NCBI GenBank assembly: GCA_026003215.1
Contig: BPGV01000001.1
Location: 981,001 to 1,045,000 of the forward strand
Length of the DNA stretch: 64,000 nt
From: Bacteroidia bacterium
GTDB taxonomy: Bacteria > Bacteroidota > Bacteroidia > SpSt-205
Direction of reading: 5' to 3'
Made by a program: the position numbers and the translations under genes. This document shows positions 3,383 through 55,058 of the stretch, one piece after another; positions within the stretch are counted from its first letter, which is position 1, and every line of letters starts with the position of its first letter. The notes under the pieces were generated by a model. It saw only the letters and a list, made by a program, of their open reading frames with translations. It made no database searches and was not told where the DNA came from.

Positions 3383-4129
3383 TTACAAGGTAAAGGCCAC
3401 ACCTATCCGGCCCCCGGCCACTCCAAAAAGCTGTTGTTCTACACGGTGGGTCACTCCGACCCAGATAAAATCCTTAAACTCCACAGGACGTGCCGGCAAA
3501 TAATCCAGCATAAAAAATACAGAGGGTAAAAATATCCGACGCTCTTGGGCATAAATAGGCCACCCTATATCCCACCGCAAATAGTATCCAACACCCACCC
3601 CAGAAGCCGATTCGCTATACCGCACCGAGCCAGACGCAGAACCAAAATATGTGGTATAACTTCCCAATTGAAGTCTCCCACCCAGAGAAGTAGCGGCTTT
3701 CTTATGCCAAGCCCAAGCAGCTCCTAAACGCAGCTTCACCATAGTCCCATGGTAGTAGGTATCATGAGGCACTGGTGGAGAGCTCCATCCCCCCATATAA
3801 GTAAATCCTTTCAGCGCCTCCCCAGCCTGCGCATATAGTTTTTTCCATAGTTCCATGCCAAACCCTGCCTCCAACTGAAGCCCATTCCCTATAGTGTAAA
3901 GGTAATCTCCGCCAAATCCCCAGCCTGTACTCATGATACTCCCCGCCATGCTATTCGGAAAAGCAGAACTCTGAGGAAACTGCCCTGCATACATCTCATA
4001 CCGCAAAAAAAGATTGAGCCGATAACTACTTTTATCTATCCCTTGCGCACAAAGAAAGGAAAAGCCTAACCCTATCCACTTCCCCAAAGAAAGCCATTTT
4101 TCTTTGGTCATTTCAATATGAAGTGACAT
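3383..4129 (-). CDS. Exported protein, probable outer-membrane beta-barrel
   Basis: A 248-residue protein. I start it at the ATG at 4127-4129 (MSLHIEMTKEKW), 4 bases after a -7 box, instead of an ATG 18 bases upstream. Residues 8-30 (KWLSLGKWIGLGFSFLCAQG) look like a signal peptide ending in AQG. The rest alternates aromatic and small residues (GYYLRWDIGWPIYA, LFGVAGGRIGVAFTL) and ends in a hydrophobic beta strand, as outer-membrane barrels do. I do not recognise a family. It is less GC-rich than its neighbours. Single-gene unit: gyrA upstream on the same strand ends at 4176, and the new promoter lies between. Confidence 0.7.
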   Translation of the reverse strand: MSLHIEMTKEKWLSLGKWIGLGFSFLCAQGIDKSSYRLNLFLRYEMYAGQFPQSSAFPNSMAGSIMSTGWGFGGDYLYTIGNGLQLEAGFGMELWKKLYAQAGEALKGFTYMGGWSSPPVPHDTYYHGTMVKLRLGAAWAWHKKAATSLGGRLQLGSYTTYFGSASGSVRYSESASGVGVGYYLRWDIGWPIYAQERRIFLPSVFFMLDYLPARPVEFKDFIWVGVTHRVEQQLFGVAGGRIGVAFTL

Positions 4130-4133
4130 AAGG

Positions 4134-4141
4134 CAAAGGTA
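4134..4141 (-). promoter_or_regulatory. -7 element TACCTTTG
   Basis: Exact match on the minus strand, 4 bases before the ATG at 4129. It separates the barrel-like gene from gyrA. Confidence 0.75.
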
Positions 4142-4175
4142 GGGCAATCCCTACTTTTTATAGCTCTGGGAAGGT

Positions 4176-6626
4176 TTAGGCTTGCTCGGCCTGGCCCTGA
4201 GCCAAAGAGACGGAGACGACTTTATCGCCTTCGCGGGGGCGAATAAGGCGCGTACCCTGCGCATCCCGCCCTAAGGTAGAGAGCTCCTTAGCCGAGAATC
4301 GGATACTCTGTCCCTCTTGCGTGACAATGAGGAGCTCTTCTTGCAAGGTAAGCAGGGGGAGCGCGGCCACGACTGGCCCGGTCTTTTCCGTGATGCGGAA
4401 GGTCCGTATGCCTTGACCCCCTCGGTGGGTCACGCGATATTCGGCAAAGGGGGTAGCTTTCCCATAACCATTTTCCGAGAGAACGAAAAGGTACCCCTCT
4501 GGATGTACTACGGGCACCAGCGCTACCAGGCTATCCGTTCCCTCTAAACGCATCCCTATTACGCCGGCAGCATCTCGGCCCATAGCCCTGACCTCCGCAT
4601 GAGGAAAACGAATAGCCTGCCCTTCCCGACTCACCAACATGGCCTCCGCCACCTTGTCTTCATCCAATAACGCTGCCCCTAAAAGGGCATCCCCTTCCCG
4701 TATATGTAGCGCTATAATCCCCTTCGCACGCGGGCGACTGTATTCTCTGAGCGGCGTTTTCTTGACCACACCCGAACGCGTCGCAAAGAGGAGCGTGTGC
4801 CGCTGCACAAAAGCCTCATCTTGCAGCGAAGAAACATTCAAATAAGCCACTATCCGTTCCTCTGGACCGATGGAGAGGAGGTTCTGGATGTGGCGGCCTT
4901 TTTGGGCGCGCTGGGCCTCGGGTATTTCATGGACACGCAGCCAGTGGCAATACCCCTTATCCGTGAATAGCAAAAGGTAGTCATGCAGACGCGCTACCAG
5001 CACATCTTGAATAAAATCTTCATCTTTGAGATCCATAGCCCGCACCCCCACGCCGCCACGCCCTTGCGCCCGATACGCACTGAGGTCTGTACGCTTGATA
5101 TACCCTTGATGGGAAATCAGCACAGCGACTTCGGTATTGGGCAAAGTATCCTCTATGGTAAGCTCGCCTTCTTCCGGCAGGATTTGTGTTCGTCGCTCAT
5201 CGCCGTACGTTTCTACAAGCTTTTGGAGCTCGGAGCGGATAATAGCTTTTTGTTCCTCGGGGTCAGCCAGTACTTTTTTATAGTAAGCGATTTTTTGTTG
5301 AAGGTCGGCGTATTCTTGCTGGATTTTTTCGCGTTCCAGCGCGGTAAGCCGTTGGAGACGCAGGTCCAGGATAGCTTGTGCCTGCGTCATAGTCAGACCA
5401 AAGGTGGTTACGAGGCCGGTGCGGGCTTCTTCGGGGGTCTGGGAACGCCGAATGAGCGCTATCACTTCATCCAAGTGGTCTAAGGCGATGAGCAGCCCTT
5501 CTAAGATATGGGCGCGTTTTTCGGCTTGGGCCAGCTCGTAAGCAGTACGCCGTAAGATGACCTGCGTCCTGTGCTCTAAGTAGGCCGAAAGCGTCTCACG
5601 CAGGGTGAGGGTTTTCGGGCGGCCCTTATACAACGCTACGCAGTAGGCGTTATAAGCTATCTCCAGCGAGCTGTGCAGGTAGAGGTTATTGAGTACCACC
5701 TTAGGCACGGCATCGCGGCGCAGCTCTACTACGACACGCACGCCTTCGCGGTCAGACTCATCGCGTACCTCGGCGATACCTTCTATTTTTTTGCTTTCCG
5801 CTAAATGGGCTATTTGTTCGACGAGGGCGGCTTTGCTGACACGGTACGGAATCTCGGTGATGATGATAGCATTTTTTCCGCCAGGCAAAGTATCTATATA
5901 GGCGCGGCCGCGCAAGCGGAGCCGTCCGCGGCCCGTGAGATACATTTGACGCACCCCTTCTTTACCCAAGAGGATGCCGCCGGTAGGGAAATCGGGCCCT
6001 TGGATGGCTTCTATCAAGGCTTCATCAGCGACTGTAGGATCGGCTAAAAGAAGGAGCAGCGCTCGTACCGTATCGCCGAGATTGTGGGGGGGGATTTCGG
6101 TAGCCATGCCTACCGCTATCCCACTGGCGCCATTCAGTAAGAGATTCGGGAGAAGGGCCGGTAAAACCGTAGGCTCTGTGAGCGACTCATCAAAGTTTGG
6201 CGCAAAATCTACGGTATCCTTATCTAAATCAGCGAGTAGGGTCAAAGCGATGGGAGCCAAGCGGGCCTCCGTATAGCGCATAGCGGCCGGTGCGTCGTTG
6301 TCCATAGAACCGAAGTTGCCCTGCCCCTCTACGAGCGGATAACGCAGAGACCAGGGCTGCGCTAACCGCACCATGGTATCATATACGGCCGCATCCCCGT
6401 GGGGATGATACTTACCTAAGACTTCCCCGACGATACGGGCGGATTTCTTGAAGGGTTTGTCCGGGGTAAGCCCGAGCTCCAACATCCCATACAATACCCG
6501 TCGTTGGACAGGTTTGAGCCCATCACGCGCATCTGGCAGCGCCCGCGCCACAATCACGCTCATGGCATAGTCTATGTAAGCGCTGCGCATCTCCTCTACT
6601 ATCGGCCGCTGCAGAATCTGACTCAC
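4176..6626 (-). CDS. gyrA: DNA gyrase subunit A
   Basis: An 816-residue type IIA topoisomerase A subunit, with GTG start at 6624-6626, 4 bases after a -7 box. N-terminal breakage-reunion domain: [29 protein letters not shown], and the catalytic Tyr118 in [11 protein letters not shown]-terminal beta-pinwheel repeats ([23 protein letters not shown]) carry a GyrA-box-like QGRGGVGV, which favours GyrA over ParC. The residue equivalent to E. coli Ser83 is Ala79; Asp87 is conserved as Asp83. GyrA and GyrB together introduce negative supercoils using ATP. gyrB is not in the window. The promoter is back to back with that of the next plus-strand gene. Confidence 0.93.
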
Positions 6627-6630
6627 GCAG

Positions 6631-6638
6631 CAAAGCTA
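6631..6638 (-). promoter_or_regulatory. -7 element TAGCTTTG of gyrA
   Basis: Exact TAnnTTTG on the minus strand, 4 bases before the GTG start of gyrA. Confidence 0.75.
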
Positions 6639-6663
6639 CCGAAAAGAGCTGGTATCCCCTTCG

Positions 6664-6671
6664 TACCTTTG
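6664..6671 (+). promoter_or_regulatory. -7 element TACCTTTG
   Basis: Exact match, 6 bases before the GTG at 6678. It is only 25 bases from the divergent gyrA -7 box. Confidence 0.75.
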
Positions 6672-6677
6672 AAGCAG

Positions 6678-7550
6678 GTGCGCTGGAGCCTGCTCTGCTT
6701 ACTCTTGGTTCATGCTTACGCTCAAGAGGGCGACTCTTTGGATATAGGTGATGAACTCTGGGAAGATTTCTTGAGCGCGCCTGCCTCAGCTCCAAAAGAT
6801 ACAGGCACTTCTCCTATATCAGAAGTGCCTTGGATGTACGACACACTCTTAGAATCCCCTAAGCCCCCTCCTCCCCTGCGATTGATTGACTCACCTATTG
6901 CGCGAGACCTTACTTCGGACCCAAAGACAAACCGTCGCATATCTACGAATCGGGCCTTCAATGTAAAGATTGTGCGGCCTATCCCTCAAAATACAAAAGG
7001 ACATCCTCTCATTCATGGCTTTGACAAATGGTACCTCTATATCGTCAAAGCCGAAGAAGTGCGCATAGAAAACCGCGTCATGCGCACCAACGGCCTTCCT
7101 GTGTATTTGGCCATCGTGAGCCCAGCCCCCCAAATAGAGGAACTACCCACCGTGTTAGAAAGCCCTGCCCTTATGCTCAAAGGCCTGGTAGATTATGGCG
7201 ATACCATCGTAAAGTATTTCAAGCAGGAAAAAAACCGGCTTAAGGCGACTTTGGACAGCCTCCTTACCCTCCCCCTCCCCCCCGACGAACTCCAAGCCGA
7301 CCAAATGGAAGCCCTCTTAACGCGGGTCGCAGACTCGCTCGTCTATGCCGAAGCCTACTACCAGCTTTACAGAGACTTCAAACGGGCCAAAGGGTCGGGT
7401 AAAGCCTTGGTGCAGTTTTTTTTGAGCTTTCCCTTCAACCGCACGCTTACCTATTCTATTTATTCCGCTCCGTATGCCTTGCCTCGATACCTCCCCCCAG
7501 AGACGACTTCCGTTCCTGAAGAACGAAAAAGAAAAGGCCGACGCTCGTAG
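6678..7550 (+). CDS. Secreted protein of unknown function
   Basis: A 290-residue protein. The frame stays open back into gyrA, but the GTG at 6678 gives a neat signal peptide, (M)RWSLLCLLLVHAYA before QEGDS, and sits 6 bases after a -7 box. The mature part begins acidic (DIGDELWEDF). It then has a segment with KWYLYIVKAEEVRIENRVM and a helical region at about residues 185-250 (YFKQEKNRLKATLDSLL, SLVYAEAYYQLYRDFKRA), and ends with a basic tail. I do not recognise a domain. Its stop codon TAG is part of the -7 box of the rhomboid gene downstream. Likely periplasmic or surface. Confidence 0.7.
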   Translation: MRWSLLCLLLVHAYAQEGDSLDIGDELWEDFLSAPASAPKDTGTSPISEVPWMYDTLLESPKPPPPLRLIDSPIARDLTSDPKTNRRISTNRAFNVKIVRPIPQNTKGHPLIHGFDKWYLYIVKAEEVRIENRVMRTNGLPVYLAIVSPAPQIEELPTVLESPALMLKGLVDYGDTIVKYFKQEKNRLKATLDSLLTLPLPPDELQADQMEALLTRVADSLVYAEAYYQLYRDFKRAKGSGKALVQFFLSFPFNRTLTYSIYSAPYALPRYLPPETTSVPEERKRKGRRS

Positions 7551-7555
7551 CTTTG
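7548..7555 (+). promoter_or_regulatory. -7 element TAGCTTTG overlapping a stop codon
   Basis: Exact match whose first three bases are the TAG stop of the preceding gene. It ends 6 bases before the ATG at 7562. Confidence 0.7.
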
Positions 7556-7561
7556 CCGCAG

Positions 7562-8113
7562 ATGCGTCACTCCGTCTTACCCCACATCATTATTATTAAT
7601 GCGCTTGTATGGCTTGCCAGCTTTCGCTTCCCTGAACTTCCGCTTCTTTTAGCGGTGCATAAAGAAGGCTTCGGCCTGGAATGGTGGCAGGTGTTTAGCT
7701 ATTTTTTTACCCACCAGAGTTTCTGGCACATTTTGGCCAATATGGTGGCGCTCTGGAGCCTTGGTGTGGCCGTAGAGGCCGTCTTAGGTAGCAGGGATTT
7801 CTTGAAGCTCTATCTTTTCACGGGCATAGGCTCTGGACTGCTCTTGGCTTTTTTGGACCCGTCTCCTATGCCGGTTTTAGGGGCCTCTACGAGTGTAAGT
7901 GGCGTTCTATCGGCTTTTGCTTTTCTTTTTCCACGTGAGCGGTTAGTTATTTTTCCTTTGCCCATCCCCATCCCTGCGCGAGGGCTGGCTATTGGGTTTG
8001 GGGTTATTTCCTTAGCGCTTTTCCTCTGGGAGCCGGTGATGGGGGGTATCTCCCACTTCGGGCATTTGTGCGGGCTCGTGCTGGGGTGGCTCTACATCCG
8101 CTGGCTGCGGTAA
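7562..8113 (+). CDS. Rhomboid-family intramembrane serine protease
   Basis: A 183-residue membrane protein of six hydrophobic segments. The TM2 motif HxxxN is present (HILANM, His56 and Asn60). The catalytic serine region reads GASTSVSG (Ser109 the likely nucleophile), and the TM6 histidine is in SHFGHLCGLVLG (His168). The usual GxSG is changed: the Gly after Ser109 is Thr. Rhomboids cut transmembrane helices of client proteins inside the membrane; the client here is unknown. The start is the ATG at 7562, 6 bases after a -7 box. The last 102 bases overlap the 3' end of scpB on the other strand. Activity is likely but the Thr change leaves some doubt. Confidence 0.88.
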   Translation: MRHSVLPHIIIINALVWLASFRFPELPLLLAVHKEGFGLEWWQVFSYFFTHQSFWHILANMVALWSLGVAVEAVLGSRDFLKLYLFTGIGSGLLLAFLDPSPMPVLGASTSVSGVLSAFAFLFPRERLVIFPLPIPIPARGLAIGFGVISLALFLWEPVMGGISHFGHLCGLVLGWLYIRWLR

Positions 8114-21616: not shown

Positions 21617-23317
21617 TCACTTTTTTGTAATCAGCGGTCGCTTATAAATATTTCTGCGCCAGAAATACAATCCTAAGCCAAAAAGTATCATAAGCACTAT
21701 GGGCATACCTAAGTTAAACGCTTGGATAAAAGTCGCATGGGCGCGTACAATTTCAGGGTTCAGGCGTCGGATTTGGACACTTCTACTGCGCACTTGGGTC
21801 AGGGAGATTTCACCCGCCAAATAATCTACACAATTGAGGAGGAAAGTAAGGTTATCTAAGGGCACATAGTCGGCGCTTCGGCCTTGCACTTCGGCGGGGA
21901 GCGCCAGTTCGCCGTCGGTAATCAAGATAGCCTTCCCGGGCAAGCCCGAACGAGGTAAAAAGCGCGCTGTAGGCGGCTTCGGGGCAAAGCTATCGGTCGG
22001 CGGCTCCCTATCTTGAAATACCGACTCAAATATTCCCTCAGTCAGCACAGCCATAGGCCGGAAACCTTTTCCCTTAAAGGCTTCCGGAGAAGGCGGATTT
22101 TTCAGCGTAAGGTTTATATCAATGAGCTGCGTCCCCTTCACCGAACGGCTTAGGGGAGAGCTTAGGGCCAAAATAGTGTGCTGTACGCCCGGCCGCGCAA
22201 GCGTATCTACACTCCCCGCATAGCGATATAATACCGCATCCACCGTACGAGTGATAGGATGCGGGGGGAAGATATAGACGACAGGATAATACAGCCACTT
22301 TTCTGCACCCCATAACGGACCGTTGTAGTACCCGCGGATAACCTCTATAAATCCGCAGGAAAAGTCTTGCACCAAATCATAGCCGGGCCGCCAGCCCCAG
22401 CGGAAAAAGAGATCATCCAAGTTAAGCTCTCGGAGCTGGGTGAGGGCTGAGCTTTCCGTAAGGTTTATGCGGTGGTAGTCCACCAGCCAGAGGAGGCGCC
22501 CCCCGCGCAAAAGGTATTGTTCAAGCTCGTACTTCTCCCGCTCCCTAAAAGCGCTATCGGGTCCAATCACGAGGATTGCCGCATACCCATCCCCTTGCAG
22601 CTTTTGCCGGAGGCTTTCCGGCAAGAACATCTTGGCCGGGGGAAGGGCCTGACCTTCTTTTACACGCACAGGTAGCACCCGATAAAACCGTTCCAGTTCC
22701 GCCCGAAGCTGCGGCATCTGGTCTAAGGGGTATTCCCCATGGCCAGAAAGAATGCCTATGATAGGTTTTTCTCCATACACGGCTATTTGGCGCAGGGCTG
22801 CCGCTATCTTATACTCCACTTCTTGCTCGGCTTCTAAAAGGTTAATCTCGCCGGTGGGGTATAGATTGCCCTTTACCAGGTCTATCCATATCTCTTGGAA
22901 GCCACACTGCACCACCGCAACAGGGTACATGTACTGCCGACGGGTCTCTGTCTGAGATACCCGCACATTGATGGGGATAGGCTGCACCCCCCGCATCTTG
23001 AAGGACTTTAAGACTTCGGGGCTTTTACTGGGATTGACAAACGTGTAGTTGAAGGGCTTCGGGGCTACCGCCCGCATCTCCGCTAAGAGCGTTTCTATCG
23101 CCCGCTTGTACCGCTGGATAGGATAGGGAAACTCCCCCTCTAAGTACACCGTCACATACACGGCCTGGGGCAAGCGCCTAAGTAACGCCTTGGTCCCCTC
23201 GGAGAGCGTATAACGCTTCTCCGCCGTGAGGTCTATCCGTACGAAGTACCGCTGCCCTATCAGATACACCAGCACTACAGCAGCGAGAAGTACCAAAAAA
23301 TGTAGGAGGGCTCTCAT
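21617..23317 (-). CDS. gldG: Gliding-motility ABC transporter substrate-binding-like protein GldG
   Basis: A 566-residue GldG. It has an N-terminal membrane helix (residues 4-22), then the ABC-type uncharacterised region with FVRIDLTAEKRYTLSEGTKALL, a family hallmark. A periplasmic domain follows (ILSGHGEYPLDQMPQLRAEL, GGRLLWLVDYHRINL), with a C-terminal membrane helix (LGMPIVLMILFGLGLYFW) and a basic tail. In Flavobacterium, GldA-GldF-GldG form an ABC transporter needed for gliding. Its start overlaps the gldF stop (ATGA). No GldA ATPase is in the window. Confidence 0.9.
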   Translation of the reverse strand: MRALLHFLVLLAAVVLVYLIGQRYFVRIDLTAEKRYTLSEGTKALLRRLPQAVYVTVYLEGEFPYPIQRYKRAIETLLAEMRAVAPKPFNYTFVNPSKSPEVLKSFKMRGVQPIPINVRVSQTETRRQYMYPVAVVQCGFQEIWIDLVKGNLYPTGEINLLEAEQEVEYKIAAALRQIAVYGEKPIIGILSGHGEYPLDQMPQLRAELERFYRVLPVRVKEGQALPPAKMFLPESLRQKLQGDGYAAILVIGPDSAFREREKYELEQYLLRGGRLLWLVDYHRINLTESSALTQLRELNLDDLFFRWGWRPGYDLVQDFSCGFIEVIRGYYNGPLWGAEKWLYYPVVYIFPPHPITRTVDAVLYRYAGSVDTLARPGVQHTILALSSPLSRSVKGTQLIDINLTLKNPPSPEAFKGKGFRPMAVLTEGIFESVFQDREPPTDSFAPKPPTARFLPRSGLPGKAILITDGELALPAEVQGRSADYVPLDNLTFLLNCVDYLAGEISLTQVRSRSVQIRRLNPEIVRAHATFIQAFNLGMPIVLMILFGLGLYFWRRNIYKRPLITKK

Positions 23318-24039
23318 GCGTGCCTCTGGCTAAGTTGCAAGCGAGCCAATCCCAGTCCGAAAAGAATGACGCCGAGGAAATACAAAATATCCCGGCTATC
23401 TACTACCCCGCGGCTAATACTGCGGTAATGTTCCATGAGACTGAGCTGGGCAAAAAACACTTGTAATGGCTTGCCAATCGGCAGCTCAGAAATAAACTCA
23501 AATCCTATAAGCCACAGAAACCCCATAAAAAGGGCCAACAAGAACGCAATAATCGTATGCATCGTGAGGGTAGAAGCCCATATGCCCAAAGCCACCAAAG
23601 CCAATCCCATCAGAAATAGGCCGACATAGGCCCCTTGGATAGCCCCATGATCCACGGCCCCGCGAGGCTGCGCCAACCAAGCAATAGACCCATAAAATAC
23701 CAGCGTCGGCACCAGCGCAAAAGCCAGCACTACCGCTACCGCCAGATACTTCCCCCACAGAATCTCCCAGGGAGAAATAGGCGCTGTAGCTAAAAGCTCA
23801 TAAGTACCCACCCGAAACTCCTCGGAAAAACTCCGCATAGTGAGCGCTGGTGCTAAAAAAAGTAAAAACCATGGCGCTATGCTAAAAAAAACATCCATCT
23901 CTGCAGCGCCCGTCTGTATCACACTGCCCGAAAAAACCCACAGAAATAAGCCGGTACCCACCAGAAATACAGCCCATATCAGGTAAGCTATCAAGGAATG
24001 CAGGAGGGCTGAAGTTTCCTTTCGCCAGAGGGCCCACAT
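23314..24039 (-). CDS. gldF: Gliding-motility ABC transporter permease GldF
   Basis: A 241-residue permease with six predicted membrane helices. Hallmark segments are FFSIAPWFLLFLAPALTMRS followed by FSEEFRVGTYELLATAPIS, and ELPIGKPLQVFFAQLSLMEH with YRSISRGVVDSRDILYF. The start is taken as ATG 24037-24039 (MWALWRKETS), 6 bases after a -7 box that overlaps the stop codon of the MFS gene. Together with GldG it forms the membrane part of an ABC-2-type system. The ATPase GldA must be encoded elsewhere. Confidence 0.9.
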   Translation of the reverse strand: MWALWRKETSALLHSLIAYLIWAVFLVGTGLFLWVFSGSVIQTGAAEMDVFFSIAPWFLLFLAPALTMRSFSEEFRVGTYELLATAPISPWEILWGKYLAVAVVLAFALVPTLVFYGSIAWLAQPRGAVDHGAIQGAYVGLFLMGLALVALGIWASTLTMHTIIAFLLALFMGFLWLIGFEFISELPIGKPLQVFFAQLSLMEHYRSISRGVVDSRDILYFLGVILFGLGLARLQLSQRHA

Positions 24040-24045
24040 GTAGAG

Positions 24046-24053
24046 CAAAGTTA
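24046..24053 (-). promoter_or_regulatory. -7 element TAACTTTG overlapping a stop codon
   Basis: Exact match on the minus strand. Its TAA is the stop codon of the MFS transporter. It ends 6 bases before the gldF ATG. Confidence 0.7.
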
Positions 24054-25449
24054 GGAGGAGCGCTCCGAACGCAGCCGCTCATCGGGGAGAAGCAAAAGCA
24101 CCCCCACAAGCAAAATACCTAAGCCGGCCATACCTCCAAAAACCCAGCGTACCCCATACAGGAGACGACCTTGCCCCCACGTTTGCCCAGCTACATATAA
24201 GATATTCAAAAAAGCCAAGCCTACCGTAGAGCCTATCTGCCGCATAAACTGTATGGCACTCGTAGCCGACCCCACCCGAGCGATAGGGACATCATTTTGC
24301 CCAACTACACTGATAAGCGCCTGAAAAGGCCCCAGAAAGCCTGCGCCCATCACCATCAGAGTCAGTAAAAGTAGCAAAGGCATTTGGACTGGAAGAGCTA
24401 CCGCAGCTATCCCCAGAAGCAAAGCAAAGCCTATGGCACAGCCTACCAACAAAGGCTTATACCGTCCGTGCCGGCTCACCCACGCCCCCGCAGCCCCCGT
24501 GCTCACAACCCCGCCTACGGTAAAAGCTAAAAGCAGCAGGCCACTTTCAGCAGGCGGATACCCGAGTACCGATTGTAAATACAGCGGAAAGAAAGTTACC
24601 CCGCCCAAAAATATCGGGCCAAAAAAGAAACCCGCTAAAGCCGCATAGCGAAAAGTAGGTATTTCTATAAGGGATAGGGCAAACAGGGGACTGGGGTGGT
24701 CTTTTTCCACGCGTATCCAGAGGAAAAGGAAAAAAAGCGCCACCGCAAGCAAAACGCCACCCCACACGGGCGCGCCCAGCCGTTCAGGCCCCCAGAAGGA
24801 AAACGCCAGCAAAAAGGGAATAGCCCAGCCTATCAGGAGCAGAATACCCCGCTTATCCAAGGAACCGTCCTGTGGCGAGGCCCGCAGGGGTAAATACCGC
24901 CATACAAATCCCATAGCCAGCAGTAGCAGCGGAACATTCATCCAAAAGGCCCACCGCCAAGACAGATGCTGCGCAAGGTACCCCCCCTATCACAGGGCCT
25001 ATCGCAGAAGCTATCCCAAAAAGTGCTCCTACCACCCCTGCCCACCGGCTGCGTTCCCTCGGCGGGAAAAACCACGCCAACGTCGTGAACGCCAAAGAAA
25101 ATAGCGCTCCACCCCCTATCCCTTGCAAAAACCGAAAGAATATTAAGGACAGAAAAGAAAAAGCCGCCCCACAAGCCAGCGACCCCACCATAAAGAGAAA
25201 AAGCGCTCCTAAGAGTATAGGCCGCCGCGGCAGAATCTCTACCAATCGGCCGGCCACAGGCGCCGCAATCGTACTGCCCAACAGGTAGGCGACCCCTACC
25301 CACCCATACCAAGCTTGCCCGCCCAGCTCCGCTAAAATGACCGGCAAAGCCGTAGCTACCACCGTCTGGTCCAACGCCGCTAAAAACAGCCCCAAAAACA
25401 CCCCCACGAGCGTAAAGCGAACTGGCCGAGGAAGGCTTTTCTGCCCCAT
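24051..25449 (-). pseudogene. MFS drug exporter (DHA2/EmrB type), split by a frameshift in a G7 run
   Basis: Two overlapping frames make one 14-helix-type exporter. Residues 1 to about 156 read from the ATG at 25447-25449: LFLAALDQTVVATALPVI, the motif C-like GIASAIGPVIGG. After GPVIGG the frame runs into a run of seven C (24981-24987; G on the coding strand) and becomes nonsense. Removing one G restores YLAQHLSWRWAFWMNVPLLL, exactly what DHA2 transporters have there, and the rest runs to the stop at 24051. So the gene is whole but for a single-base insertion. It may be inactivated, switched by slippage, or a sequencing error. Would export drugs or metabolites by proton antiport. Confidence 0.85.
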
Positions 25450-25454
25450 GCGGC

Positions 25455-25462
25455 CAAAAGTA
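25455..25462 (-). promoter_or_regulatory. -7 element TACTTTTG
   Basis: Exact TAnnTTTG on the minus strand, 5 bases before the ATG of the MFS gene. Confidence 0.72.
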
Positions 25463-25477
25463 CTACTTCTTCTCTCC

Positions 25478-27881: not shown

Positions 27882-28725
27882 ACGGTGGGGCGAACACATC
27901 GCTACCCTCGCCGTAGCCCTCCTCAGCTGGGGAAGTATAGCTATCCTCGCAGGCATTATAGGCTTCTTGGTGTATCGGGGCGGGCAAGTACTAAGTTGGG
28001 AGTTTCTTACAGCGCCTATGCGGGAGGGCATGCAAAAGGGCGGTATCGCGCCTGCCTTGGTAGGAAGCCTTTGGCTGACGGCGGTAGCTATCCTCACCGC
28101 TGCCTTTATCAGTACAGCCGCCGGGGCTTACCTCAGCGAGTTTGCTCGGCCCTCCCGCTTCAAAAATCTCATAGAGTTTTTGGTTACTACCTTAGCAGGG
28201 ATCCCTTCAGTCGTATATGGGCTTTTTGGGCTGGCCCTTTTTGTGACAGCTTTAGGCCTTGGAGCCTCTATTTTAGCTGGGGGGCTCACCTTGGCCCTGC
28301 TTTCGCTCCCTTTGCTCATCCGCAATGCCCAGGAGGCCTTTGCCGCCGTACCCCGAGCCTTAAAGGAAGCCAGCTTAGGTATTGGGGCATCAGAAATACA
28401 GACTTTTTTCCGAATCACCCTGCCCATGGCGCTACCCCGTATCCTCACCGGCCTGGTCTTAGCGAGCGGCCGCGTCTTAGGCGAGACAGCCCCTATCCTC
28501 TTTACGGTGGCCGCTTACTATCTCCCCACCTACCCGCATAGCCTCTTAGAACCCACCATGGCCCTACCCTACCACCTGTATGTGCTCATCACCAGCGGAA
28601 CCAATATCCAGGCTACCTACCCTATGGCCTTTGGTACAGCCTTGGTGCTTCTACTGCTCACCTTATGCTTGACGGGAATAGCCGCTTACCTTCGCTATCG
28701 CCTAAAAAAGTCTTACCGTGTATAA
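27850..28725 (+). CDS. pstA: Phosphate ABC transporter permease PstA
   Basis: A 291-residue permease with six predicted helices. The BPD core has [35 protein letters not shown], and the EAA loop [20 protein letters not shown] followed by [14 protein letters not shown]. The C-terminal part has [15 protein letters not shown], standard for PstA. The ATG start lies 32 bases inside pstC, an overlap that implies coupling; no better start is seen later. Works with PstC as the membrane channel. Confidence 0.93.
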
Positions 28726-29470
28726 AGTAGAAGCCCACGCCGTCTCCGTCTGGTATGGAGACCACCAAGCCCTCTACAAAGTCTCCCTCCAGCTCGAGCG
28801 TAACCAAGTACTGGCGCTAATAGGCCCCTCCGGCTGCGGTAAATCCACCTTCCTGCGTCTCCTAAATCGCATGAATGACTTCATCCCAGGCTTCCGCATG
28901 GAAGGCAAAATCCTCATAGATGGAGAGGATATCTATGCGCCCCATGTAGATCCTGTGCACCTGCGCCGACGGGTCGGCATGGTCTTCCAAAAACCTACAC
29001 CGTTCCCCTTCTCTATCTATGAAAACGTGGCCTATGGCTTGCGCCTGCAAAACCGCCTCAAGGAGTCCCAGATCCGGGAGCGCGTAGAACAGGCCCTGCG
29101 GCAAGCCGCCCTCTGGGATGAAGTCAAAGACAACCTCAAAAAGTCGGCCTTAGCCCTCTCGGGCGGCCAACAGCAGCGTTTATGTATCGCCCGGGCCTTA
29201 GCAGTGCGCCCCTCCCTCCTCCTCATGGACGAACCCACCTCGGCTTTAGACCCCATCTCCACCGCCAAGATTGAAGAGCTTATCCATGAGCTCCGACAGA
29301 CCTATACGATTGTGATTGTAACCCACAATATGCAACAAGCCGCACGCATCAGCGATGTCACCGCATTCTTCCACATGGGACGGCTCATTGAGTGCAGCCG
29401 CACCAAAGACTTCTTTACCAACCCTACACATCCCGAGACTTTGCGCTATATTACAGGACGATTTGGCTAA
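28718..29470 (+). CDS. pstB: Phosphate ABC transporter ATP-binding protein
   Basis: A 250-residue ABC ATPase. Walker [10 protein letters not shown] (about residues 34-42), Q-loop [21 protein letters not shown] (typical PstB), signature [16 protein letters not shown], Walker [14 protein letters not shown] and the switch His in [13 protein letters not shown]. The GTG start at 28718 overlaps the pstA stop by 8 bases. Powers phosphate import by PstC/PstA. Its stop codon TAA is the beginning of a near-consensus -7 box in front of phoU. Confidence 0.95.
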
Positions 29471-29481: not shown

Positions 29482-30168
29482 ATGAGCCTGATTGAAACCG
29501 AGATTGCCAAAGTGCGCAGTCGGGCCTATCAAGTGGTACAGCACCTCCAGCAACAGCTCGCGCTTCTGGAAGAAGCCGTAACCGCCGGCGAATGGACCCG
29601 TCTCCACCAGCTGGAAAGACTCCGAGAGGAAAGCTTAGAAGGCGATATGCGATTAGACCGCCGATGCGCACGCATCCTGGCTTTGCATCAGCCCGTAGCC
29701 AGCGACCTGCGCTTCATCTTGGCGGTCATGCGCATGCACTTTTATGTAGATGAGATTGGCGAGCGGCTTGCCACCATAGGGCGACGCTTGGCCTTATATG
29801 CGCCGATCCTCCCCTCCGACGCCCTCCAAAAAATGCCCCTCCCTCAGCTTGTCCAAAGCGTCCATCGCCTCTTAATCATCTGCTTAGAGGCTTTCTTCCG
29901 CAGCGATACCGAACGCTCCAAAATGATAGACTCCGAAGACAACGCCGTAGACGAAGCCTACGAAGCTTGTATGCAAGTCATCACTCAAGCTATAACCCCC
30001 CCCCTCCCCGAAAAACAAGCCACCGCCTGGATAGAGCTCGCTATTATTGTCAAAACCTTAGAAAAGATAGCCGATTACGCGTTAGATATTGCGGATGCTT
30101 CTATTTACTACGCAGAAGGGGTGTATTATTGGCATCGGTTCGCTCGGCGCTCAGAGTCCCACTCGTAA
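29482..30168 (+). CDS. phoU: Phosphate signalling protein PhoU
   Basis: A 228-residue all-helical protein made of two PhoU repeats. Repeat 1 has DMRLDRRCARILALHQPVASD and DLRFILAVMRMHFYVDEIGE. Repeat 2 has SKMIDSEDNAVDEAYEACMQ and IIVKTLEKIADYALDIADA. The Glu/Asp-rich clusters (ExxxD) are the metal-binding patches of the family. PhoU links Pst transport to phosphate sensing and limits uptake. Start ATG at 29482, shortly after pstB. The last 18 bases overlap the 3' end of the WbqC-like gene on the other strand. Confidence 0.93.
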   Translation: MSLIETEIAKVRSRAYQVVQHLQQQLALLEEAVTAGEWTRLHQLERLREESLEGDMRLDRRCARILALHQPVASDLRFILAVMRMHFYVDEIGERLATIGRRLALYAPILPSDALQKMPLPQLVQSVHRLLIICLEAFFRSDTERSKMIDSEDNAVDEAYEACMQVITQAITPPLPEKQATAWIELAIIVKTLEKIADYALDIADASIYYAEGVYYWHRFARRSESHS

Positions 30169-43414: not shown

Positions 43415-44632
43415 TTAGAAAGGACGCCCCACGCGTACCATGGCACACCGGAAGCCGACCGTAGCGGAAGCGGAATCCGCGTGTAAGAAGCGGCGGGCCC
43501 CACAGGTCACATAATACGCCACATCCGCCCAAGAGCCGCCCCGGTATACCTTAGCTGCGTCTGCGCCCAGTTCGGGCCATGAAGACCCACCGCCTTGTCC
43601 TTCTTGGCCTTGGGCAGCTAAAGCCTTAGGACTGTACAATAGGCTGGTTTTAGGGTCATAGGTATCGTCGTATTGGAACTGGTCTACCTGCACTTCGCCG
43701 CGGCGCCGATGAGGATTGAGATCTTCCGCATCTTCGTAGGTGAGCACTCGGTAGGTATCTTCAGTCCACTCAGCTACATTACCCGCCATATTGTACAGGC
43801 CGAAGTCATTCGGGTAAAAAGCCTTTACTGGAGCAGGGATCATGTAGGCATCATTTAGGCCTTCATAGAGGAGGGAACCGCCTTTGTTGGAGCGGCCGGC
43901 ATAGTCGCCTCGCCCGCGCTTGAAGTTGACCCGGAAGCGTCCCTTCATATCTCGCAGGCTGCGGCCCTCCCAGGGGTAAAGCTCTTGTTCGTAGCCGGCC
44001 CGAGCCGCATATTCCCATTCGGCTTCGGTAGGCAAGCGGTAGTCGGGATAGAGAATAGCTTCGGGGTCCCTTTCCGTAAGCTGCTTATTTACAATAGCGG
44101 TACGCCAGGCCGCAAACTCCCGGGCTTGGTGCCAGTTTACCCCTACCACCGGATACATGTGATACCCCTCATGCTGGAAGTAATAGCGCACATAGGGATC
44201 ATTGTAGGCCATCTCACGGAACCATACATTGGTATCCGGATACAGGAGTTGGGCCTTTTGGTCGCCCGAGTCTTTCTGCACGTAAAAGAGGAACTGCTTG
44301 TATTCGACATTAGGGACCTCCGTTTCGTCCATGAAAAAGCTGGCCACGGTGACTTGGCGCACTCGGGCATTGTGTTCATAATCCAGGTCTTTTTCCGTCC
44401 CGCCCATGTGGAAGGTACCCCCTTCAACAAATACCAATCCTGGCCCCGGCGGAAGCTCCCGATAAGGCTTCACATAAAAGCCTTCGCCTCCGCTCTTACG
44501 AGCAAACTTGAGTCCTGTCAAACGACTGGTGGAACCGGGGTCTTCTATGTTGCCGCCGCCACCACAGGCCACCAGGGCCAGAGCTACTACGGCTGCCCCT
44601 ACAAGAGGTATCCATTTTTTAGCCATAGGCAT
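43415..44632 (-). CDS. gldJ: SUMF1-fold lipoprotein of gliding/T9SS, GldJ/GldK type
   Basis: A 405-residue lipoprotein. The signal peptide ends in ALVAC with lipid Cys23, followed by Gly-rich GGGG. The formylglycine-generating-enzyme-like domain has GPGLVFVEGGTFHMGGTEKD, SFFMDETEVPNVEYKQFL, YPVVGVNWHQAREFAAWRT, YRLPTEAEWEYAARAGYE, NMAGNVAEWTEDTYR and VYRGGSWAD. GPGLVFVEGGTF and NDPYVRYYFQHEGYHMYPVV fit GldJ more than GldK, but both share the fold. Such lipoproteins belong to the gliding/type IX secretion machinery. Start: two ATGs fit, 44632 (3 bases after the -7 box) and 44626 (9 bases after). Adjacent PorP/SprF supports the role. Confidence 0.83.
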   Translation of the reverse strand: MPMAKKWIPLVGAAVVALALVACGGGGNIEDPGSTSRLTGLKFARKSGGEGFYVKPYRELPPGPGLVFVEGGTFHMGGTEKDLDYEHNARVRQVTVASFFMDETEVPNVEYKQFLFYVQKDSGDQKAQLLYPDTNVWFREMAYNDPYVRYYFQHEGYHMYPVVGVNWHQAREFAAWRTAIVNKQLTERDPEAILYPDYRLPTEAEWEYAARAGYEQELYPWEGRSLRDMKGRFRVNFKRGRGDYAGRSNKGGSLLYEGLNDAYMIPAPVKAFYPNDFGLYNMAGNVAEWTEDTYRVLTYEDAEDLNPHRRRGEVQVDQFQYDDTYDPKTSLLYSPKALAAQGQEGQGGGSSWPELGADAAKVYRGGSWADVAYYVTCGARRFLHADSASATVGFRCAMVRVGRPF

Positions 44633-44635
44633 GCG

Positions 44636-44643
44636 CAAAGGTA
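44636..44643 (-). promoter_or_regulatory. -7 element TACCTTTG
   Basis: Exact match, 3 bases before the ATG at 44632 and 9 before the ATG at 44626. The start that is used should show which spacing the transcript tolerates. Confidence 0.72.
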
Positions 44644-53792: not shown

Positions 53793-53800
53793 TAACTTTG
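53793..53800 (+). promoter_or_regulatory. -7 element TAACTTTG
   Basis: Exact match, 4 bases before the ATG at 53805. Confidence 0.74.
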
Positions 53801-53804
53801 CCTT

Positions 53805-55058
53805 ATGCTCAATAGCCCTTCTAAAAGCACTAATATTTTGTACCTATCAAGCTGGAGAACATTATTCGCCAATAATCATGAAGTTTTTTTTATATATGTG
53901 GCTATTCTACATATATTCGTCAGGATGATAATTCTTGCTTTTTTTTCAGATCCTCCGCATGGCTTAGAAGACTTAGATATTGCTGTACACTTGGCTCGGG
54001 GCGAAGGTTTCAGTTTTGGCGATAGGGGCCCTACGACTTGCAAAGGACCGTTTTACCCTTCATTTTTAGCCTTTTTCATCTGGATAGGATTTGATCCACT
54101 AAATCTTTGGCCAGTAGCTCTAATACAACATATCCTATTAGCCTTTGTCCCTTTTCTCATGTACAAGTTGGGCAAATACATGGGTTATCCCCGAGTCGCT
54201 CAGTGGGCAGCATTGTTTTTTGCGATTCATCCTTCTTATCTTTATGCGCCCAAAGTATTGGAAAACACTTCTCTACTTATATTTTTGAGTGTTTTGTGGG
54301 GTATAACCCTTTATCGGCTACGTGAAAATCCCAATTGGGCATGGGTAGTTTTCATAGGCCTCTGGCTGGGCCTGAGCTGGATAGAAAAACCGCCTGTTTT
54401 GCTGCCGATGGGATTAGCGATCTTGCTCATTGTCCCAAGAAAATATTGGTTGCCTATTGGTCTAATAGGGTTTTTACCTGTAGGCTTATGGGCTCTTAGA
54501 GGATATTTAGTATTCGGTTATCCCACATGGAGCAAGACATATGCAGGCCAAAGCAGCCTTCCTATTGCATGGACGCCAAGCCACAACCCCTCTCTTAAGT
54601 ACGCCTTGTCGGTAGAATTTGAATGCTATGTGGATTCTCTCCTGCATGTAGCAGAAGCCGTCAGCGGCCCCGAATTTGAACGACTAACCCAAAAAATCAT
54701 AAAAGAAAAGATTGGGCCCATTATGTTAGAAAAATCTATGATGAATGCCCTAATGTATTGGTGGATACCTTGGAGATACTGGGGAAATAACTCCCTATCC
54801 TTTTGGATAGCACGAAAAATACCAGTGATACTCATCAACACTTTTTTCCTACTCGGTGTTGTTCTGGGATTCAGGCGCTACAAAGGCCTTATATTATTCG
54901 TTTTGCTTGTCAGTGCTATTTTTACAGCTACTTATGCATTTTATCATGCTCTTTATATTCGGTATAAGTTAGACATAGAATGGCTTCAGCTTTATGTGTG
55001 TGCAATAGGAGCCTTAGAAATAAAGCAGAGGGTACAACGACTTTTGTCTGGCGACTAA
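53805..55058 (+). CDS. Multi-pass membrane glycosyltransferase-like protein (GT39/ArnT-like)
   Basis: A 417-residue membrane protein with about nine to ten hydrophobic segments. LEDLDIAVHLARGEGFSFGD early on fits the first periplasmic loop of GT39/ArnT-type transferases (two acidic residues that bind lipid-linked sugar). FAIHPSYLYAPKVLENTSLL and KPPVLLPMGLAILLIVPRKY also fit that fold. The exact family is uncertain. It is plainly more AT-rich than the genes on both sides and uses more A/T-ending codons, which suggests recent transfer or a different history. Start ATG 4 bases after a -7 box. Substrate unknown. Confidence 0.72.
   Translation: MLNSPSKSTNILYLSSWRTLFANNHEVFFIYVAILHIFVRMIILAFFSDPPHGLEDLDIAVHLARGEGFSFGDRGPTTCKGPFYPSFLAFFIWIGFDPLNLWPVALIQHILLAFVPFLMYKLGKYMGYPRVAQWAALFFAIHPSYLYAPKVLENTSLLIFLSVLWGITLYRLRENPNWAWVVFIGLWLGLSWIEKPPVLLPMGLAILLIVPRKYWLPIGLIGFLPVGLWALRGYLVFGYPTWSKTYAGQSSLPIAWTPSHNPSLKYALSVEFECYVDSLLHVAEAVSGPEFERLTQKIIKEKIGPIMLEKSMMNALMYWWIPWRYWGNNSLSFWIARKIPVILINTFFLLGVVLGFRRYKGLILFVLLVSAIFTATYAFYHALYIRYKLDIEWLQLYVCAIGALEIKQRVQRLLSGD

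Follow-up and report, generated by a model that had tools for sequence, protein, structure and literature searches.

Stop codons in the genome of a Bacteroidia bacterium appear to double as the first bases of the next gene's promoter, a -7 box of the form TAnnTTTG from which leaderless or nearly leaderless mRNAs would be transcribed inside apparent operons, and we give this reading a probability of about 85%. Behind it stand the position of the box relative to start codons, the enrichment of stop codons on it, the genomic context in which it occurs and its conservation among relatives.

Three Stop/Box Overlaps in the Window

The window is the whole stretch of 64,000 nucleotides analysed here (C1:981001-1045000; 54% GC), part of a single-contig Bacteroidia genome of 2,268,343 bases (2.27 Mb), termed G000 below, which belongs to an uncultured family. 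An earlier note on this DNA had claimed three places where the stop codon of one gene is at the same time the beginning of the box ahead of the next, and reading the sequence directly we found all three overlaps exactly where it had placed them. At each site the stop makes up the first three bases of the box, exactly 6 nt follow, and then comes an ATG, as seen from the listing of open reading frames (ORFs) and from the proteins, which were translated and compared with Pfam. Two of these examples hold as complete boxes, between a gene of no known family and a rhomboid gene (7548) and between an MFS and an ABC permease gene (24053, minus strand), whereas the third, at pstB/phoU (29468), does not, its box being imperfect and shared by none of eight relatives. 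The features are listed here with three other boxes of the window for comparison.

6504..7550, plus strand: upstream gene without a Pfam match, whose TAG stop supplies the opening three bases of the following, predicted promoter box; its start is uncertain and was placed at 6678 by a motif-blind gene finder
7548..7555, plus strand: TAGCTTTG, stop TAG (7548-7550) fused with the predicted -7 box of the rhomboid gene, spacer 6 nt
7562..8113, plus strand: rhomboid protease gene (Pfam PF01694), ATG at 7562, predicted near-leaderless start
24051..25467, minus strand: MFS transporter gene, its 3' part terminated by the box's TAA; extent from the matches of relatives
24046..24053, minus strand: TAACTTTG, stop TAA (24053-24051) fused with the predicted -7 box of the ABC-2 permease gene, spacer 6 nt
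23314..24039, minus strand: ABC-2 type permease gene (Pfam), ATG at 24039, predicted near-leaderless start
28718..29470, plus strand: pstB-like ABC ATPase gene (Pfam ABC_tran; the name pstB is that of the earlier note), ending on TAA
29468..29475, plus strand: TAACTTTA, stop TAA (29468-29470) with an imperfect box, its last base A instead of G; a weak candidate, not conserved
29482..30168, plus strand: phoU gene (Pfam), ATG at 29482, 6 nt after TAACTTTA
53793..53800, plus strand, comparison: TAACTTTG box 4 nt before the ATG at 53805, its TAA not the stop of a gene (L066)
44636..44643, minus strand, comparison: TACCTTTG box 3 nt before the ATG at 44632; the upstream stop begins 11 nt ahead of the box
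4134..4141, minus strand, comparison: TACCTTTG box 4 nt before the ATG at 4129, in the frame of the ORF 3383-4147

The MFS gene is frameshifted near 24982-24986 (minus strand), where the intact proteins of three relatives (472-494 codons) each match as two adjacent pieces in different frames; this is either a sequencing error or a broken gene, and because the frameshift lies upstream, the stop at the second site belongs to the 3' part of the MFS gene. At the third site, a weak promoter gained in this species only is a doubtful explanation. In its favour, the variant TAnnTTTA is found at -11 to -16 of 7 of 673 G000 genes where 0.65 would be expected from background (1/306 in the sister genome G007 and 5/318 in G004), and against it stands the pstB/phoU junction of the relatives, which lacks the box in all eight and has the pstB stop, as read, about 1-17 nt ahead of the phoU start.

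Position of the Box Relative to Start Codons

The Bacteroidetes housekeeping promoter (sigma-ABfr) is described as -33/-7 TTTG/TAnnTTTG, and in F. johnsoniae promoters aligned on the transcription start site (TSS) the G of the box lies at -5, 4-5 nt ahead of the first transcribed base; AT-rich motifs are seen near -18 and -28, and the -33 motif is much less evident (PMC6847099). The boxes studied here share this TAnnTTTG, the third site with TTTA instead. We located them relative to genes called by a simple gene finder of our own that is blind to the motif, applied to the window and 40 stretches of 20 kb (864 kb in all; 690 genes, 710 in a revised run). In the G000 sample 86 of 653 genes have a TAnnTTTG that begins at -12 relative to the called start. 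Between -20 and -9 there are 177 matches, whereas further upstream the background is about 0.00057 per gene and position, and the peak at -12 is repeated in two sister species (41/313 and 35/323 genes; 400 kb each). Counted from candidate starts, 190 of 659 sampled G000 genes carry the box 3-8 nt ahead, most commonly at exactly 4 nt. Genome-wide, TAnnTTTGN4ATG occurs 223 times in G000 and its reversed pattern 16 times.

Among the 60 genomes searched, G000 included and strands summed, all 12 of the family (G000-G011) have a strong excess of TAnnTTTGN4ATG, the fewest matches being 133 vs 6 (G006) and the least favourable ratio 178 vs 23 (G009). In most of the other 48, nearly all of different families, the excess is smaller or absent, with typical counts of 30-60 vs 20-40 per strand; five of the 48 (G020, G028, G031, G051, and G059) are clearly above the control, so that the box at the start codon is strong in this family but not confined to it. 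G051, from another family of the class, has the highest number of the five (356 vs 75 in the control), which suggests a second lineage that may be rich in leaderless genes.

Across three genomes, 403 gene-start boxes could be aligned, and 196 of them have a spacer of 4 nt and 59 one of 5 nt. The commonest spacers, 4-5 nt, thus put the predicted TSS on the start codon itself, and a leaderless mRNA is predicted for them, a leader of 1-4 bases for spacers of 6-8 nt, and one of 1-2 nt for the three sites of the earlier note with their spacer of 6. AT-rich stretches lie 4-8 and 14-16 nt ahead of the aligned boxes in modest enrichment and match the -18 and -28 elements of F. johnsoniae. A TTTG -33 element was considered and dropped, as the 403 boxes have no clear peak about 19-23 nt ahead, despite 13 exact matches genome-wide at one fixed spacing vs 0 in the reversed control.

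Transcription or Translation Signal

A short preferred distance to the start codon, such as the spacer of 4 in 196 of the 403 boxes, would also suit a translation signal in the mRNA, either for ribosome binding or for termination-reinitiation, with the overlap coupling the translation of neighbours. The gene context helps to tell the two apart. A gene was counted as having the box when it preceded the called start or another in-frame one up to 60 nt away, and 29 permuted motifs served as decoys, giving 0.3-1.1% over the three genomes.

G000: divergent 89/176; tandem with a gap of at least 100 nt 14/54; 30-99 nt 30/75; 5-29 nt 49/112; below 5 nt 8/242
G007, same order: 40/80; 1/37; 14/38; 24/48; 4/94
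G004, same order: 40/86; 4/20; 9/27; 18/58; 5/119

In G000 the box is thus found ahead of about half of the divergent genes, 44% of the tandem genes with a gap of 5-29 nt, and 3% of the abutting ones, and over the three genomes it is present in between roughly a third and a half of those close tandem pairs (gap 5-29) that resemble operons. Divergent genes have no upstream translation to couple, yet 89 of 176 have the box; coupling should count most for abutting tandem genes, and these nearly lack it (8/242). Genes in tight operons need a translation signal and are mostly without the box, therefore it behaves as a signal of transcription, and the AT-rich elements upstream fit the geometry of a promoter as well. 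We consider a translation signal highly improbable, and translational coupling was rejected on account of the abutting genes. The promoter reading accommodates what the earlier note had proposed, that independent promoters are hidden in apparent operons, given that the box in G000 is nearly as frequent before close tandem genes (49/112) as before divergent ones (89/176).

Stop Codons on the Box

The earlier note had suggested counting the stops that overlap the box, and the outcome favours its claim. With the samples of three genomes pooled, nTTTG follows TAA or TAG in 20 of 808 cases and TGA in 3 of 556 (one-sided Fisher p = 0.004). Taken singly, G000 has 9/422 vs 1/286 (p = 0.043) and G007 8/177 vs 1/145 (p = 0.036), and in G004 alone there is no significant excess (3/209 vs 1/125, p = 0.52). 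In the whole of G000, TAACTTTG-N2-9-ATG has 49 sites, 42 of them at gene starts and 14 with the TAA as the stop of the upstream gene; TAGCTTTG before ATG has 41 distinct sites, 30 at gene starts and 4 with the TAG as stop; and TGACTTTG before ATG has 17 distinct sites, 4 at gene starts and none with the TGA as stop. Genome-wide, TAACTTTG or TAGCTTTG before ATG therefore contains the stop of a gene at 18 sites at least (vs 0 for TGA), a minimum because this search was limited to C at the fourth position of the box and to ATG starts, and two further sites with GTG or TTG starts are present in the G000 sample. In both counts, then, stop usage is biased by the start signal it overlaps. Boxes within a coding frame (27 of 243) were left out.

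The promoter boxes could be real and the overlap still a coincidence, with gene ends in a compact genome simply falling on a box that starts with TA. The box supplies these two bases, a frame entering in one of three phases then needs only A or G as the third, and each genome sample contributes few cases (9, 8, and 3). Around the 403 gene-start boxes, however, the upstream stop coincides exactly with the box in 17 cases where about 2.7 would be expected from neighbouring positions, and of the 20 upstream genes whose frame meets the box as TAn, 17 end at it and 3 continue beyond; in the other boxes the third base is A or G in only 56 of 386 (14.5%), giving a binomial p = 4e-12 for 17/20. The low TGA control (3/556, and 0 genome-wide) and the overlap kept in 42 of 54 orthologous junctions, described below, also count against coincidence, which we regard as unlikely. 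A coincidental origin followed by retention is possible.

Upstream stops are also over-represented 15 and 11 nt ahead of the box (11 and 12 pooled vs about 4.6 expected; P = 0.008 and 0.003 before correction for the number of positions), a weak excess, of which the one at 15 nt coincides with the AT-rich -28 element. At six boxes (L011, L040, L152, L169, L170, and L174) the upstream gene reads through and has as its stop a TGA that overlaps the start codon, and these represent another type of compact junction.

Conservation in Relatives

Five junctions, chosen because G000 has the overlap there, were followed in orthologues: those of the rhomboid and the permease, and three ahead of genes that we take to be frr (downstream of a queC-like gene), apt, and pdhB, all four names being putative. 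The frr junction had already been seen conserved in G007, and apt and pdhB had not been looked at in relatives beforehand. Pooled and with G000 itself counted, every one of 54 orthologous junctions has the box and 42 of 54 have the in-frame stop (49/49 and 37/49 without G000), leaving 12 of 54 in which a stop within the box is not shown.

At the rhomboid junction, all 11 orthologues have TAGnTTTG, with a protein identity of 62-80% for the relatives, and in 8 of the 11 the upstream frame ends in phase on its TAG; two others (L137 and L145) have an earlier in-frame stop 5 and 3 codons ahead of the box, and L143 is ambiguous. At the permease junction the box is present in 12/12 and TAAnTTTG in 11/12, with an in-frame stop of a long upstream frame in 8/12, three of these eight frames (L124, L128, and L131) having been compared with the MFS gene of the window. 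The frr junction has the box in 10/10 and an in-frame queC-like stop in 9/10, the upstream gene in L200, read by eye, running through the box to a TGA that overlaps the start. For apt the numbers are 11/11 and 10/11, one (L202) with a different upstream tail, and for pdhB 10/10 and 7/10, the remaining three having TAT, TAT, and TAC. All these counts include the genome itself. The G007 stretches contain a close orthologue for 5 of 18 overlap sites, with stop and box kept together in 4 of the 5; for a sixth junction (L064) the box is present in the orthologue from G007, with no stop overlap shown.

Since pairwise identity is only 39-47% at the third codon positions downstream and 24-51% in the 4 bases that follow the box, the box stands out as conserved. 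In some relatives the upstream stop is elsewhere yet the box is kept (rhomboid L137 and L145, frr L200, pdhB), so the box looks constrained and the gene end adapts, which suggests that the box may be the fixed element and the end of the upstream gene what moves. In G006 (L221) the pdhB junction reads TAAGGTTTG, with one base more than the other species have in their stop/box, and a TATCTTTG box begins 11 nt after that TAA begins; possibly this is a snapshot of a stop/promoter overlap coming apart.

Rows left out of the comparison were L212 (apt, contig edge), L120 (phoU, junction not reached), L122 (second piece of the G007 phoU of L121), L041-L045 (copies of phoU junctions already counted), L146-L150 (rhomboid paralogues, 34-41% identity), and L223-L226 (pdhB paralogues). 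There was no orthologous junction for the rhomboid in G001, frr in G006 and G011, pdhB in G008 and G011, or apt in G011.

A Proposed Shared Stop and Promoter

We propose that the Bacteroidota housekeeping sigma factor would recognise TAnnTTTG as the -7 box, and that transcription from a box mostly 4 nt away from the start codon would begin at that codon or 1-4 nt before it, giving a leaderless or near-leaderless mRNA. Box, spacer, and start would fit into about 14 bp, with the AT-rich upstream part of the promoter placed in the last codons of the upstream gene; where this gene enters the box in the TAn frame, the TAA or TAG of the box would be its stop, and the same bases would terminate one protein and serve as promoter for the following gene. 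Binding of the sigma factor, the position of the TSS, and a transcription of the downstream gene of its own, besides any read-through, are here predicted from sequence. As a terminator would not fit between the genes, transcripts that read through from the neighbour probably come in addition. It is reasonable to think that leaderless transcription made this compaction possible.

On a broader view, to which we incline with less confidence, this family rebuilt its gene expression around pervasive leaderless promoters, many operon-like close tandem genes would be separate units, and selection would hold stops as joint stop/-7 boxes, a dual code conserved family-wide. With leaderless starts predicted at about half of the divergent genes, the family would offer a natural test of leaderless initiation by Bacteroidetes ribosomes. 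Operon prediction based on distance could misjudge such genomes as a consequence of the stop/promoter overlap, which is also a clear example of two codes on the same bases.

Comparison with Known Systems

The closest likeness is to the sigma-ABfr promoter of F. johnsoniae, with the same -7 box, a spacing that matches 4-5 nt to the TSS, AT-rich stretches near -18 and -28 and no clear -33 element. Unlike there, the box in this family often abuts start codons, whereas 87% of F. johnsoniae leaders are longer than 10 nt, in a phylum described as lacking Shine-Dalgarno sequences (PMC6847099). A G at the third position, reported as virtually absent from F. johnsoniae boxes (PMC6847099), is nevertheless present here, as in the TAG stops, and this counts against the leaderless-promoter reading.

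Leaderless mRNAs are reported to be rare, and most transcripts leadered, in the Bacteroidetes studied so far, which makes the family notable and also counts against the reading: 5.5% are leaderless in F. psychrophilum (PMC9723704), about 3.7% of 5' UTRs are shorter than 10 nt in B. thetaiotaomicron (PMC7366714), and a survey found such genes in only 1 of the 37 genomes it covered from Bacteroidetes/Chlorobi (2.4%), its authors stating that only Pribnow-like promoters were identified (PMC3160421). The TA-led leaderless genes which that survey describes in Actinobacteria and Deinococcus-Thermus resemble ours in having a promoter box just ahead of the start in a large share of genes; their box, however, is Pribnow-like.

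Stop codons are also described as overlapping the Shine-Dalgarno sequence of a downstream gene, with stop usage adapting (PMC2784483). Here too the stop shares bases with the start signal of the next gene and usage adapts, but the signal there is a ribosome site and here a predicted promoter, so that the neighbour can be transcribed separately. Overlapping ATGA/TGATG gene pairs, for which translational coupling is named as a potential benefit (PMC6728339), are likewise compact junctions, and differ from ours in that six boxes here are read through by an upstream gene ending on the start-overlapping TGA. Among the matches listed from the open-licence literature, as far as their text was available, stop codons within the -7/-10 boxes of leaderless genes, or conservation of that combination, were not found. 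The box, leaderless genes, and the overlap of stops with a downstream signal are each known already, and it is their combination that seems to be new here.
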